Positions 27,252-31,350 of a stretch of 64,000 nucleotides of DNA are shown piece after piece. Position 1 is the first letter of the stretch. Each line of letters starts with the position of its first letter. Source of the DNA: Kaistia hirudinis (GTDB lineage: Bacteria; Pseudomonadota; Alphaproteobacteria; Rhizobiales; Kaistiaceae). The notes beneath the pieces are model-generated. The model saw nothing but the letters and a program-made list of their open reading frames with translations, made no database searches and had not been told where the DNA came from. The stretch spans positions 372,001-436,000 of the forward strand of contig NZ_JACIDS010000005.1 of the NCBI RefSeq assembly GCF_014196455.1. The letters are read 5' to 3'. A program made the position numbers and the translations under genes.

Positions 27252-27716
27252 CTACCCGATCGGCACCGCCGGGGCGTCCTTGACGCGGCGGATCGTCAGC
27301 GAGGTCTTGACGCTCTCGACGCTGGAGGCCGAGGTGAGTTCCTCGATGAAGGCCTGGAAGGCGCGCAAGGTCGGCGCCACGCATTTCAGGATGAAGTCGG
27401 CCTCGCCGGAGAGCATGTAGCACTCACGCACGATCGACCAGCCCTGCACGCGCGCCACGAAGGCCGAAAGATCGGCCTCGGCCTGGCTGGCGAGCCCGAC
27501 CATGGCGAACATGGTCACGTCGAAGCCGAGCGCCTTCTCGTCCACCAGCGCCCGATAGCCGGTGATGATGCCGCTCTCCTCCAGCGCGCGGACGCGCCTG
27601 AGGCAGGGCGGCGCCGAGATCCCGACGCGCCGCGCAAGCTCCACATTGGTGATACGGCCGTCGTCCTGAAGTTCTTTCAGGATCTTCCAGTCGATGGCGT
27701 CGAGATTGGCCTTCAC
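27252..27716 (-). CDS. lrp: Lrp/AsnC family transcriptional regulator
   Basis: 154-residue feast/famine regulator. The N-terminal helix-turn-helix (LDAIDWKILKELQDDGRITNVELARRVGIS, written in two parts in the family as the AsnC HTH) is followed by a RAM ligand-binding domain with GFDVTMFAMVGLAS and CYMLSGEADFILK. GTG at 27716 has AAGG about 8 bases upstream and gives a standard N-terminus; ATG at 27794 would add 26 unlikely residues but cannot be excluded. In Hyphomicrobiales an lrp gene divergent from trxB and followed by lsrB is a recurrent arrangement. Confidence 0.87.
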   Translation of the reverse strand: MKANLDAIDWKILKELQDDGRITNVELARRVGISAPPCLRRVRALEESGIITGYRALVDEKALGFDVTMFAMVGLASQAEADLSAFVARVQGWSIVRECYMLSGEADFILKCVAPTLRAFQAFIEELTSASSVESVKTSLTIRRVKDAPAVPIG

Positions 27717-27830
27717 GCGCTTGCCTTGGAACGGGCCCGAAACCCGGAGCGATGCCTGAGTCGCCGGTCGCGGCGATTCTGACCGAAGCGCCATGATTCG
27801 GAAACAATTGTCGGTGAGAACTCACAAGAA

Positions 27831-27855
27831 TGCATGGCTCGCGCCCTTGCATGCA
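27831..27855. promoter_or_regulatory. Inverted repeat in the lrp/trxB divergent region
   Basis: TGCATG (27831-27836) and CATGCA (27850-27855) form a perfect 6-bp inverted repeat with 13 bases between, about 70 bp before trxB. The TGCAT/ATGCA half-sites are the same as those in the palindrome upstream of the sRNA at 30043. Confidence 0.35.
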
Positions 27856-27923
27856 CTTATGGCAACCCTCTAGACTTGAGACCCTTTCGGATTTCGGCTC
27901 TCGACACCATTTATCGATCCATC

Positions 27924-28889
27924 ATGCAGCACGCCAAACTCATCATCGTCGGTTCCGGCCCCGCGGGCTACACCGCCGCGATCTATGCCGCGCGCGCCAT
28001 GCTGGAGCCGATGCTCATCGCCGGTATCCAGCCCGGCGGCCAGCTCACCATCACCACCGATGTCGAGAACTATCCCGGCTTCGCCGATGTCATTCAGGGC
28101 CCCTGGCTCATGGAACAGATGCGGCTGCAGGCGGAGCATGTCGGCACGCGCATGGTCAACGACCATATCATCGAGACCGACCTTTCGCAGCGCCCCTTCG
28201 TGCTCAAGGGCGATTCCGGCGAGACCTACACGGCCGACGCGCTGATCATCGCCACCGGAGCGCAGGCGCGCTGGCTCGGCATCGACAGCGAGCAGCGCTT
28301 CAAAGGCTTCGGCGTCTCGGCCTGTGCCACCTGCGACGGCTTCTTCTACCGCGGCAAGGAAGTCTATGTCGTCGGCGGCGGCAATACGGCCGTCGAGGAG
28401 GCGCTCTATCTGGCGCATATCGCGTCGAAGGTGACGATCGTGCACCGCCGCGACCATTTCCGCGCCGAACGGATCCTGCAGAACCGCCTCGCGGCGCTGA
28501 AGAACGTCGACGTGCTCTGGAACACCGAGATCGCGGAAGTCGTCGGCAAGGCCGGCTTCCCGCCCTCCGTGACCGGGCTGAAGCTGCGCAATGTCGTGAC
28601 CGGTGAAGTGACCGAGCGGAACACCGACGGCGTGTTCATCGCGATCGGCCATGCGCCGTCGGTCGATCTCGTGCGCGGCCAGCTCGAGCTGAAGCCGTCC
28701 GGCTACATCTGGACCGAGCCCGGCTCGACCCGCACCAATATCGAGGGCGTGTTCGCCGCCGGCGACGTTACCGACGAGACTTTCCGCCAGGCCGTTACCG
28801 CCGCGGGACAGGGCTGCATGGCCGCGCTCGAAGCCGAGCGCTGGCTGGCCTCGTCGCGCATCGCCGATGTCGCGGCGGCCGCCGAATAG
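27924..28889 (+). CDS. trxB: Thioredoxin-disulfide reductase
   Basis: 321-residue NADPH-dependent flavoenzyme that keeps thioredoxin reduced. The FAD loop GSGPAGYTAAIYAARA is at the N-terminus, the redox pair is CATC within SACATCDGFF, the NADPH loop is GGGNTAVEEALYL, and the second FAD motif is GVFAAGDVTDETFRQAVTAAGQG. Length is standard. The ATG at 27924 is used because the Rossmann fold starts immediately after; an upstream in-frame ATG adds 30 residues inside the regulatory region. Neighbours lrp and lsrB suggest regulation by redox or nutrient state. Confidence 0.96.
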   Translation: MQHAKLIIVGSGPAGYTAAIYAARAMLEPMLIAGIQPGGQLTITTDVENYPGFADVIQGPWLMEQMRLQAEHVGTRMVNDHIIETDLSQRPFVLKGDSGETYTADALIIATGAQARWLGIDSEQRFKGFGVSACATCDGFFYRGKEVYVVGGGNTAVEEALYLAHIASKVTIVHRRDHFRAERILQNRLAALKNVDVLWNTEIAEVVGKAGFPPSVTGLKLRNVVTGEVTERNTDGVFIAIGHAPSVDLVRGQLELKPSGYIWTEPGSTRTNIEGVFAAGDVTDETFRQAVTAAGQGCMAALEAERWLASSRIADVAAAAE

Positions 28890-28966: not shown

Positions 28967-29857
28967 ATGGACTGGGACAAGCTCCGCATCTTTCACGCAG
29001 CCGCGCAGGCCGGCTCGTTCACCCATGCCGGCGAGACGCTGGGCATGAGCCAGTCCGCGGTCAGCCGTCAGGTCAGCGCGCTGGAACAGGATCTCGGCGT
29101 TCCCCTCTTCCACCGCCACGCCCGCGGCCTGATCCTCTCGGAACAGGGCGAACTGCTCTATCGCACGTCGCAGGACGTGATGATGAAGCTCGAAGGCGTG
29201 AAGGTGCGCCTGACGGATTCGCGCGAGAAGCCGACCGGCACGCTGCGCATCACCACCACGGTGGCGCTCGGCTCGACCTGGCTCACCGAGCGGCTCAACG
29301 AGTTCGTCGACCTGCATCCCGGCGTGAACCTGCACCTGATCCTCGACGATCAGGAACTCGACCTGACCATGCGCCAGGCCGACGTCGCGATCCGCCTGCG
29401 CCAGCCGGTCCAGCCCGACCTGATCCAGCGCCGGCTGTTCACGACGCACTATCACGTCTATGCGGCGCCGGCCTATGTCGAGCGCTTCGGCATGCCGCAG
29501 ACGCTGGACGACCTCGACAAGCACCGCATCGTGACGTTCGGCGTGCCTGTGCCGCCCAATATTCGCGACGTGAACTGGCTCGAGATCGCCGGCCGCTCGA
29601 CGGACAATCCGCGCGAGCCGATCGTGCGCATCAACAATATCTACGCCATCAAAGCCGCGGTCGAACGCGGAACCGGTATAGCGATCCTGCCCGACTACAT
29701 GATCGAGGCGGATTCCGCGCTCGTGAAGCTGATGCCCGAAGCGCAGGTGCCGAGCTTCCCGACCTATTTCTGCTATCCGGCTGAGCTGAAGAATTCGGCC
29801 CGCGTCACCGCCTTCCGCGACTTCATGCTCGCCAAGGCGCAGAACTGGCAATTCTGA
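28967..29857 (+). CDS. lsrB: LysR family regulator of the LsrB/VtlR type
   Basis: 296-residue LysR regulator. The winged helix-turn-helix is at residues 1-60 (KLRIFHAAAQAGSFTHAGE, SQSAVSRQVSALEQDLGVPL). The effector domain has the RQADVAIRLRQPVQPDLIQR and NNIYAIKAAVERGTGIAILPDY segments. The position directly after trxB and the high conservation of the N-terminal MDWDKLRIFHAAA match LsrB of Sinorhizobium/Agrobacterium and VtlR of Brucella, regulators of envelope, oxidative stress and AbcR sRNA expression (established in those species). Orthology is inferred from order and sequence feel. A candidate AbcR-type RNA lies downstream. Confidence 0.85.
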   Translation: MDWDKLRIFHAAAQAGSFTHAGETLGMSQSAVSRQVSALEQDLGVPLFHRHARGLILSEQGELLYRTSQDVMMKLEGVKVRLTDSREKPTGTLRITTTVALGSTWLTERLNEFVDLHPGVNLHLILDDQELDLTMRQADVAIRLRQPVQPDLIQRRLFTTHYHVYAAPAYVERFGMPQTLDDLDKHRIVTFGVPVPPNIRDVNWLEIAGRSTDNPREPIVRINNIYAIKAAVERGTGIAILPDYMIEADSALVKLMPEAQVPSFPTYFCYPAELKNSARVTAFRDFMLAKAQNWQF

Positions 29858-30042: not shown

Positions 30043-30059
30043 TGCATAGCTGCGATGCA
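30043..30059. promoter_or_regulatory. Candidate LsrB/VtlR operator of the sRNA gene
   Basis: Perfect inverted repeat TGCATAGCTGCGATGCA (5-bp arms, 7-bp spacer). It contains two overlapping T-N11-A patterns. Its centre is about 56 bases before the predicted sRNA start, the usual position of a LysR activator recognition site. Confidence 0.5.
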
Positions 30060-30069
30060 CAGATGCTGG

Positions 30070-30100
30070 TTGTTTAGGCAGCCTGACCTATACATATACA
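30070..30100 (+). promoter_or_regulatory. Predicted promoter of the AbcR-like sRNA
   Basis: TTGTTT (30070-30075) is followed by overlapping -10-like sequences CATATA (30093-30098, 17-base spacer) and TATACA (30095-30100). An AT-rich block is conspicuous in otherwise GC-rich DNA. Predicted transcript start is about 30105-30110. Confidence 0.5.
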
Positions 30101-30106
30101 GCCTTG

Positions 30107-30246
30107 TTGATGCGTTGGCCCCCGCTTTCTCCTCCCTGCGGCCCGGCTGACCTCAACTGTTCCCTCTGGAAGGTGTTTGCTGCGCTTTCCCTGCCGCAGC
30201 AACAAAGACTCGCCGGGCCTCGCAAGAGTGCCCGGCCTTTTCTTTT
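30107..30246 (+). ncRNA. Candidate AbcR-like (alpha-r15 family) trans-acting sRNA
   Basis: About 140 nt, no plausible ORF. A first hairpin CCGC/GCGG (30122-30125 with 30138-30141) displays the loop TTTCTCCTCCCT, an anti-Shine-Dalgarno sequence. A single-stranded region has TGTTCCCTCTGG. A second hairpin TTGCTGCG/CGCAGCAA (30177-30184 with 30195-30202) displays CTTTCCCT in its loop. The RNA ends with a perfect terminator. AbcR RNAs of Agrobacterium, Sinorhizobium and Brucella are Hfq-dependent repressors of ABC-transporter mRNAs, carry repeated CU-rich anti-SD loops of this kind and, in Brucella, lie next to the LysR gene vtlR. Family assignment is by structure, motif and synteny, not by alignment. 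Only one copy is seen here. Confidence 0.72.
30212..30246 (+). terminator. Terminator of the AbcR-like sRNA
   Basis: GCCGGGC/GCCCGGC (30212-30218 with 30230-30236), extended by CTC/GAG around a GCAA tetraloop, then CTTTTCTTTT. It is among the strongest intrinsic terminators in the window. Confidence 0.9.
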
Positions 30247-30390
30247 CTGGGGTTAGGTGCGCTTCACGCCGGACAAGGACGATTGCCTTGGACGGACCGC
30301 CAAGCCCTCCCCCATCTGCCACATGGACATGCTGCGCCCCATCGCGGCGCCGGGCTCGGCCCGACGCGACGAAGACGCGTTCAGCCGGGC

Positions 30391-31350
30391 TCACATATAG
30401 AGCGGCTGGTCCTGCAGGCCCTTGTAGAGGTCGGCGACGAAGGGCGCATAGCCGTTGAAGAGTTGCGTCGGCACACGCTCATTGGTGCCGAGCACCGTCT
30501 CGCTCGCCTGGCTCCAGCGCGGATGCGGCACTTCGGGGTTCACATTGGCCCAGAAGCCATATTCCGACGCTTGCAGCTGCTGCCAGAAATTGAGCGGCTG
30601 CTCCTCGACGAAGCTGATCTTGACGATCGATTTGATGCTCTTGAAGCCATATTTCCATGGCGTGTGCAGGCGCATCGGGGCGCCCATCTGCTTGGGCAGC
30701 GGCTTGCCATAAGCGCCGGTCACCATGAAGGCGAGCTCGTTGGTCGCCTCCGCCATGGTCAGCCCCTCGACATAGGGCCAGGGATAGAAGGGCTGGTTCT
30801 GGCCCGGCGCCATGTCCGGATCCATGAAGGTCTCCATGCGGACATATTTGGCCGAGCCGAGCGGCTTGGCGAAGGCGACGAGCGCGGCGAGCGGAAAGCC
30901 GGTCCACGGCACCACCATCGACCAGGCCTCGACGCAGCGATGGCGGTAGACGCGCTCCTCGAACTGCATCGCCTTGAACAGATCGTCGATCGCGACCGTC
31001 TTCGGCGCCTCGACCAGCCCGCCGAACTCGACCGACCAGGGCCGCGTGCGCAGGGCCTGCGCCGCATCGGCGAGGTCCTTGTTGGTGCTGTATTCGTAGA
31101 AATTATTGTAGTGGGTGTTGATCTCCTCCGGCGTGATCGCCTGTTCGGCGACGAAGCGCGGATTGCGCTTGGCCGGATAGAGCGCGGCGCTCGGATCGGC
31201 CTCCTCGGCGGCGTGGCCAAACCGCGGCATGGCGAGCGCGGCGAGGCCGAAGCCTCCGGCGGCCAGAAGCGCGCGGCGATTGAGGAATACGGCCTCGGGA
31301 GTCGCCTCGCGCTCCGCGATCTCCCATCCCCTCGTCCTGCGGATCAGCAT
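30391..31350 (-). CDS. msrP: Protein-methionine-sulfoxide reductase catalytic subunit MsrP (YedY)
   Basis: 319-residue periplasmic molybdopterin enzyme that repairs oxidised methionines in exported proteins. The N-terminus has the twin-arginine export signature NRRALLAAGGFGLAALAMP, the molybdenum ligand is the Cys of YRHRCVEAWSMVVPW, and conserved blocks NFYEYSTNKD, GAPMRLHTPWKYGFK and SASEYGFWANVNPEVPHPRW-like sequence (here QASEYGFWANVNP) are present. AAGGGAG precedes the ATG. The usual heme membrane partner MsrQ is not adjacent on either side. It is convergent with the sRNA terminator. Needs molybdenum cofactor, which the mod operon at 50.6 kb would supply. Confidence 0.93.
   Translation of the reverse strand: MLIRRTRGWEIAEREATPEAVFLNRRALLAAGGFGLAALAMPRFGHAAEEADPSAALYPAKRNPRFVAEQAITPEEINTHYNNFYEYSTNKDLADAAQALRTRPWSVEFGGLVEAPKTVAIDDLFKAMQFEERVYRHRCVEAWSMVVPWTGFPLAALVAFAKPLGSAKYVRMETFMDPDMAPGQNQPFYPWPYVEGLTMAEATNELAFMVTGAYGKPLPKQMGAPMRLHTPWKYGFKSIKSIVKISFVEEQPLNFWQQLQASEYGFWANVNPEVPHPRWSQASETVLGTNERVPTQLFNGYAPFVADLYKGLQDQPLYM

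Follow-up and report, generated by a model that had tools for sequence, protein, structure and literature searches.

An AbcR1-type small RNA gene downstream of lsrB in Kaistia hirudinis and its predicted action on transporter mRNAs

Gene order and features of the locus

The window analysed here is the whole 64,000-nt stretch of Kaistia hirudinis DNA presented above. Near its middle are situated, in this order, a gene for an lrp-type regulator, trxB, lsrB (a LysR-type gene), a structured sRNA gene of approximately 140 nt, and the convergent msrP (Table 1). The sRNA gene, between lsrB and msrP, lies 247 nt past the lsrB stop codon and shares its strand. The genes trxB, vtlR and abcR are ordered likewise in Agrobacterium tumefaciens (PMC7486931; here and below, statements citing PMC numbers refer to those parts of the papers that were available). 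A location beside trxB-lsrB/vtlR, one of the marks of AbcR genes, is thus found at the Kaistia locus. An earlier note, made from the sequence without database searches, had described an LsrB/VtlR-type LysR gene adjoining the sRNA, and the orthologue was identified as the gene that follows trxB.

The same note had placed the 5′ end of the RNA near 30107. It is better set at 30104–30106, in view of the −10 and −35 hexamers and the positions at which the covariance-model matches begin (30103 for model R2 and 30104 for model R1; see below). The note had also described the region as free of ORFs. Mechanical ORFs do overlap it on both strands, yet they are unlikely to be coding, because an alignment of the genus shows single-base indels there.

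Table 1. Features in the vicinity of the sRNA gene, in window coordinates
Feature	Position	Strand	Basis or remark
lrp-type regulator	27252–27794	−	Gene order upstream of trxB
trxB, thioredoxin-disulfide reductase, synteny partner	27834–28889	+	TIGR01292, 408.6 bits (cut-off 343.45)
lsrB, LysR regulator of the LsrB/VtlR type, probably activating the sRNA	28967–29857	+	Directly after trxB; orthologues upstream of ar15 matches
LsrB-type dyad TGCATAGCTGCGATGCA, predicted binding site	30043–30059	+	Includes GCAT-N3-TG-N3-T at 30044–30056
−35 TTGTTT	30070–30075	+	TTG invariant in 18/18 aligned promoters
−10 CATATA, 17 bases after −35	30093–30098	+	CATAT invariant in 18/18
AbcR-type sRNA gene	30105–30246 (5′ end inferred, ±2)	+	Model R2 match; fold z −3.11
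aSD1 CUCCUCCC, loop of stem-loop 1	30129–30136	+	8-mer identical to S. meliloti aSD1 (PMC8844928)
aSD2 UUCCCUCU, between stem-loops 1 and 2, within block CAACUGUUCCCUCUGGAAGGUG	30160–30167	+	Conserved block
Third CU-rich motif CUUUCCCU, loop of stem-loop 2	30185–30192	+	UCCCU in 15/15 rows of alignment A2
Rho-independent terminator and U-run	30212–30246	+	Sequence and fold; helix kept across the family
Mechanical ORF overlapping the sRNA	30177–30458	+	
Mechanical ORF overlapping the sRNA	30074–30394	−	
msrP, convergent to the sRNA	30391–31350	−	

Structure and motifs of the RNA

Two hairpins with CU-rich loops, as described earlier, could be read directly from the sequence: TTTCTCCTCCCT (30126–30137) is the loop of hairpin 1, CTTTCCCT that of hairpin 2, and TTCCCTCT the linker. 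The segment 30100–30250 folds with −58.8 kcal/mol, and none of 200 shuffles folded equally well. Two details required correction. The linker had been called unpaired; it is present, but its UUCC can pair with a downstream GGAA. The terminator had been called perfect; it too is present, but consists of a 7-bp stem (arms GCCGGGC, 30212–30218, and GCCCGGC, 30230–30236, followed by CTTTTCTTTTC) plus 3 bp with one bulged U. A simple promoter/terminator scan did not list this + strand terminator; it accepts loops of up to 8 bases, and that of the 7-bp stem is longer.

The motifs are arranged as in an AbcR RNA: loop 1 holds aSD1, while aSD2 follows stem-loop 1 and precedes stem-loop 2. This aSD2 has one C fewer than the S. 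meliloti motif UUCCCCUC (PMC8844928). The third CU-rich motif was kept in all 14 Kaistia-genus genomes seen. Its CCC occurs in 17 of the 37 rows of alignment A3 (9 from the genus and the genus labelled g3, 8 from others), and is absent from L017, a locus of the same family, and from three rows of loci L110 and L111.

Individual folds, which agree in most rows though not in all, contain an outer helix (CAGCUGA/UCAGCUG type), stem-loop 1 with the aSD1 loop, the UUCC/GGAA hairpin, stem-loop 2 and the terminator. They were the source of the common structure, since RNAalifold applied to A3 gave 7 pairs only. In the 37 sequences, 131 cells showed double changes, as against 60.6 in shuffles and 48–63 in slid controls; 23 of the 31 pairs had a double change, and 77.0% of the cells were paired (69.1% in shuffles). 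This excess is partly built in, because the structure was derived from these same sequences. Alignment A2, with 15 rows, superseded an earlier one, A1, in which some rows were wrongly oriented. Across A2 the stem arms change, while the promoter, the motifs, the terminator and the block ACUGUUCCC(C)UCUGGAAGGUGUU are kept.

Promoter and putative LsrB-binding site

In the whole window there is a single dyad of the form TGCAT-N7-ATGCA, where 0.02 would be expected, the pattern having been chosen after the dyad was seen. In 18 upstream regions, hand-chosen and including 7 from the genus or g3, the elements GCAT, TGC, TTG (−35) and CATAT (−10) are invariant and fixed in spacing. The published placing of the LsrB box at −61 to −49 (PMC8844928) would put +1 at 30105.

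The published 13-base LsrB consensus is found 8 times in the window, against 6.0 expected, which is not significant. GCAT-N3-TG-N3-T was therefore rejected as standalone evidence; being as common as chance, it carries weight solely through its position and conservation. Its TG is replaced by AG in 3 of 15 aligned relatives. A consensus promoter scan reported no promoter at the sRNA (neither −35 nor −10). As regards the LsrB-activated sigma-70 promoter characteristic of AbcR genes, then, box and hexamers are conserved, but such a scan misses them.

Homology and family membership

A match in Rfam and conservation of the CU loops had been proposed as the test of AbcR (alpha-r15) identity. The two halves of that test disagreed: there was no ar15 match in the window, whereas the CU loops are conserved both in the genus and in other families. 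At gathering thresholds, Rfam found one tRNA only in the window. The ar15 model (RF02345) matched nothing there even at E 10, and gave no match to the sRNA locus at E ≤10 when the K. hirudinis genome was searched. Around the sRNA, four Rfam matches at E ≤10 were seen, the best being anti-hemB (14.7 bits) and SorX (13.0 bits), which is chance level.

In 7 of 7 relatives tested (six of the genus and one of genus g3), the ar15 model did match the sRNA locus at E ≤10, with 18.8–24.1 bits. Unrelated places in the genomes of those relatives scored up to 27.7 bits, and 12 of 14 control genomes had ar15 matches at E ≤10; the low scores in the relatives are support by position only. Neither the window copy nor the 7 relatives reach the gathering score of 40 bits, so the sRNA is not an RF02345 hit. 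Rfam was set aside as the deciding test because it is too narrow, giving sub-threshold scores only, at the same locus in relatives.

A covariance model trained without the genus, R2, detected the sRNA decisively, in agreement with the identity first proposed. It was built from 26 LsrB-linked or ar15-type sequences (alignment A4), none from the genus and none belonging to loci L001–L019. Of these, 14 come from genomes of other families and 12 were so judged by title only; five belong to the Rfam ar15 matches over cut-off, to which Kaistia is linked via intermediates. R2 matched window positions 30103–30244 with 66.4 bits (E 2.6e-17 for 64 kb), and the next match had 8.9 bits. It is apparent that homology in sequence and structure, a further mark of AbcR, is found by a model to which the genus did not contribute. 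R2 also recovered 19 of 19 loci collected by DNA similarity (44.8–87.6 bits), among which the window copy ranks 15th.

Of 61 genomes searched, 19 supplied those loci: every one of the 14 genus members (K. hirudinis included), 4 further members of the family and 1 genome from a different family. Both aSD blocks, aSD1 and aSD2, persist in 13 of the 13 other genus genomes searched, with lsrB in each fetched stretch, and can be recognized in further families of the order as well. In L015, from genus g3, ACUGUUCCC(C)UCUGGAAGGUGUU is nearly intact. In Pleomorphomonas, Roseibium, Cohaesibacter, Tepidamorphus and others, the region downstream of LsrB contains the block as CAGCUGUUCCCCUCUGGAAG, preceded on its 5′ side by a CUCC-type motif. 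When 30 Rfam ar15 loci from genomes of the order were fetched with 1.5-kb flanks, an LsrB orthologue was found upstream in 20 (18 of 28 distinct places, the 30 including two pairs from identical places); 17 of the 30 had full-length matches, with 60–74% identity.

With a second covariance model, R1 (37 sequences, alignment A3), 297 genomes of the order were searched and 153 had matches at E ≤0.001, the weakest of which may be chance. At the same E limit the Rfam ar15 model had matches in 24 of 199 genomes, 7 over cut-off, in a sample differing from that of R1. Among 80 LsrB loci, 26 had R1 matches of at least 42 bits, 12 of them training loci and 6 Kaistia loci already in the DNA-similarity set; two of the 26 (L054, also far from lsrB, and L057) are on the opposite strand and two (L058 and L090) more than 1 kb downstream.

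The whole K. hirudinis genome contains a single R1 match, which bears out the single copy noted earlier. Elsewhere in the order, genomes G049 and G208 (loci L110, L111, L134 and L135) each have a tandem pair of ar15 copies following lsrB, as well as a third match located on a separate contig. In Sneathiella, three tandem R1 matches each are located downstream of lsrB (L092:6030-6630 and L097:6024-6660), so the RNA seems to have been multiplied there. As a separate observation, the LsrB of record L030 (NZ_JAIUIE010000003.1, Mesorhizobium sp. BR1-1-16) is 97% identical to that of the window; the name of this strain is probably out of date, and it probably belongs with Kaistia.

The Kaistia RNA is an AbcR1-type sRNA, a homologue of alpha-r15/AbcR and a new member of a known family. 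With AbcR1 of S. meliloti and A. tumefaciens it has in common the position downstream of trxB-lsrB/vtlR, the Rho-independent terminator, the CUCCUCCC of aSD1 in the first loop, and an aSD2 placed ahead of stem-loop 2 and behind stem-loop 1; a putative LsrB-type box and a putative sigma-70 promoter also correspond. It differs from them in the aSD2 that is one C shorter, the extra CU motif in loop 2, the single copy without a tandem AbcR2, a score below the Rfam cut-off, and a regulator without the C144 partner. The high-scoring ar15 loci L110 and L111 have a shorter stem-loop 1 than the Kaistia RNA.

Motif matches in transporter mRNAs

Duplex energies of the whole sRNA with transporter mRNAs were uninformative and were replaced by contiguous motif complementarity. 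Within the K. hirudinis genome, 15 LivK-type genes (PF13458) were compared with 46 GC3-called ORFs of the window. The LivK set comprised 16 of 26 PF13458 matches, those from profile position 1 or 2, less L216, which had no start; L215 was kept, its start looking wrong. The other sets were all 14 PF00496 matches (SBP_bac_5) and 30 of 38 PF00126 matches (LysR). Start codons were picked by Shine-Dalgarno score, several motifs were tested, and the p values are uncorrected.

The longest perfect complement of loop 1 upstream of the start averaged 6.8 in LivK-type genes and 4.6 in window ORFs (p 0.0012), a difference attained by letter-shuffled loops in 1 of 500 cases. Loop 1/aSD1 matches of at least 8 nt were found in 7 of 15 LivK-type genes, as against 1 of 46 window ORFs (Fisher p 1.0e-4) and 0 of 30 LysR genes. 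Among the LivK-type genes, L211 had the longest match (11 nt), followed by L208, L209, L210 and L213 (9 nt each). Little difference between LivK-type genes and window ORFs was seen for the 16S 3′ tail (p 0.087). Compared with the 30 LysR genes, aSD1 gave p 1.6e-4 for the LivK-type genes and 0.0017 for the 14 SBP_bac_5 genes, none of which has an aSD1 match of at least 8 nt. The 16S tail also matches LivK-type genes slightly better than LysR genes (p 0.026), and part of the LivK signal accordingly reflects Shine-Dalgarno strength. In addition, the LivK-type genes may share GGGAGGAG by descent.

For aSD2, matches of at least 7 nt occur in 5 of 14 SBP_bac_5 genes and in one of the 30 LysR genes (p 0.031 when match lengths are compared), a weaker signal than that of LivK. 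The third motif gave p 0.059 for transporter ribosome-binding sites against window ORFs, and 0.038 and 0.21 against LysR genes, likewise uncorrected. In S. meliloti, two motifs with partly different targets have been demonstrated (PMC8844928). The pattern observed here, which is exploratory, fits such an arrangement at the level of predicted pairing.

The computed features (sequence and structure, homology, synteny, the conserved promoter, the occurrence of one copy only, the hfq gene and the motif match) are best explained by an AbcR1-type sRNA that would be activated by LsrB and, with the assistance of Hfq, would block the translation of transporter mRNAs; the probability of this reading is put at roughly 0.88. 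LsrB would bind the dyad and activate the sigma-70 promoter at 30070–30098, yielding an RNA of about 140 nt that would end at 30241–30246. Together with Hfq, its C/U-rich motifs (aSD1, aSD2 and perhaps the third) would pair with purine-rich ribosome-binding sites in mRNAs for transporter substrate-binding proteins, and translation would thereby be blocked. An hfq gene is present in the K. hirudinis genome (111.5 bits), and the sRNA ends in a U-run. Transcription, activation by LsrB, Hfq binding and repression of the targets are all predicted here from sequence.

The LsrB regulator and alternative explanations

LsrB of A. tumefaciens has C144 and C273 as a conserved redox pair (PMC11975290). 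The window LsrB has one cysteine only, C269, with V140, V232 and I240 at the other positions; C269 occupies the position of A. tumefaciens C273, and a valine that of C144. The cysteine columns correspond to C144, C236, C244 and C273, the numbering being shifted by 4 throughout; this correspondence was deduced from the L110 and L111 columns rather than from the A. tumefaciens protein itself. Among 143 distinct LsrB-type proteins, a sample weighted towards relatives of the window protein, cysteine is present at both the C144 and C273 positions in 7, and none of the four positions is filled in 113. In 78 of the 143 there is no cysteine whatever.

These data bear on an alternative that is compatible with the homology half of the explanation favoured above, namely that the RNA is an AbcR homologue by descent operating in a different circuit. 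LsrB would then act without sensing oxidants through a disulfide, and the RNA would respond to metabolism or growth, possibly reaching some different targets through the third CU motif. We regard this as possible but on balance unlikely. The solitary cysteine, the valine at the C144 position, and the retention of the third CU motif throughout the genus speak for it; conservation of the promoter box and of aSD1 and aSD2, and the slight enrichment of the third motif in transporter ribosome-binding sites, speak against it. Moreover, one cysteine might suffice, because in A. tumefaciens substitution of C273 alone led to higher H2O2 sensitivity whereas that of C144 alone had no effect (PMC11975290).

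It is very improbable that the sRNA is merely the lsrB 3′ UTR and terminator with chance CU tracts. The distance of 247 nt from the lsrB stop and the shared strand would allow it, but the region has its own conserved promoter and box, covarying internal helices, and motifs conserved across families. Equally improbable is convergence on CU motifs by an sRNA of the SorX type or of another alphaproteobacterial kind. SorX (RF02784) resembles the Kaistia RNA in its CU-rich model consensus, is Hfq-dependent and represses a transporter (PMC9438474), and its model does match positions 30171–30243. At 13.0 bits (E 3.2), however, this match is far under the cut-off (46.6) and extends over no more than hairpin 2 and the terminator, and an AbcR model trained without the Kaistia sRNA already matches the locus. 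SorX is also 3′-UTR-derived, being released by cleavage from the end of an OmpR-type transcript (PMC9438474), and with such a parent gene the idea that it represents the same locus in Rhodobacter was rejected. Least probable of all is membership of the NfeR1/ar14 family (RF02344), which consists of anti-Shine-Dalgarno sRNAs of the same order with several redundant CU motifs of similar style (PMC8844928) and is represented in the K. hirudinis genome, since the ar14 model hits other places and not the sRNA locus (cut-off 58.8), which the LsrB-linked model matches.

The two ar14/NfeR1-type RNAs, over the Rfam cut-off, are situated outside the window at C8:56854-56974 and C1:829444-829566 of the K. 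hirudinis genome (G000). Two families of anti-Shine-Dalgarno sRNAs thus coexist in this genome, at different loci.

A second, SorX-like RNA after lsrB

In Kiloniella, Sneathiella, Magnetovibrio and others, a different element follows lsrB, with the core ACGUCUCCCAGACGUGAAGCCUCCCUGUU (some letters vary) and then a terminator (L061, L075, L079, L081, L083, L088, L091–L093, L095, L097, L098, L101, L103, L106, L107, L109 and L140–L169). The 21-mer CAGACGTGAAGCCTCCCTGTT is present in 74 of 385 genomes of the class; its reversed control was found in none. When 30 loci were fetched by the core alone (L140–L169), LsrB was upstream in 26. Within 800 nt downstream of lsrB in 80 loci, the AbcR core was observed in 20 and the SorX-like core in 20, one locus having both, as compared with 3 and 1, respectively, in 693 background blocks; by these strict patterns, 41 of the 80 have neither, some because the contig ends.

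The helices of the SorX-like RNA covary. In whole-locus scans of 8 LsrB loci with this element, no Rfam cut-off was passed; one SorX-like locus searched deeply matched the SorX model with 27.8 bits (E 9.2e-5), below its cut-off of 46.6, and the SorY model with 22.4 bits. R1 matched 10 of 30 SorX-like loci in the direction of the RNA (9.9–27.5 bits, 6 with at least 16 bits), and common descent with AbcR is possible on this basis. An LsrB-like dyad, chosen post hoc, precedes 23 of 49 SorX-like elements (5.0 in shuffles), and the published LsrB consensus precedes 8 of 49 (1.5 in shuffles).

Together with the C144/C273 pair being present in just 7 of the 143 LsrB-type proteins, these results moderately favour the view that an LsrB-linked anti-Shine-Dalgarno sRNA is an old alphaproteobacterial feature with at least two RNA types at one genomic position, AbcR in the Hyphomicrobiales and the SorX-like RNA in other orders, in a circuit that would be older than, and independent of, the thiol switch of Agrobacterium LsrB.

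Significance

In the part of the literature that was searchable, Kaistia was not found together with AbcR (a 2018 review of AbcR in Rhizobiales may already note such members), nor SorX together with LsrB or VtlR, nor LsrB together with Rhodospirill* and sRNA. The core letters of the SorX-like element returned, by title, papers on human cancer or nuclear import.

The interest of these findings lies mainly in the widening of the family, in a regulator poor in cysteines, and in the occurrence of another RNA type at this genomic position. The Rfam model covers part of the AbcR family only, and annotation therefore misses members of the Kaistia type. The missing cysteine partner raises a testable question, namely what LsrB senses where the disulfide cannot form.

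Kaistia is free-living. In most Rhizobiaceae and Brucellaceae alpha-r15 has been described, and its regulon has been read as an aid to host colonization (PMC8844928). The presence in Kaistia of an AbcR homologue, together with matching ribosome-binding sites in transporter genes, suggests that the basic job of this RNA is the ranking of nutrient uptake.
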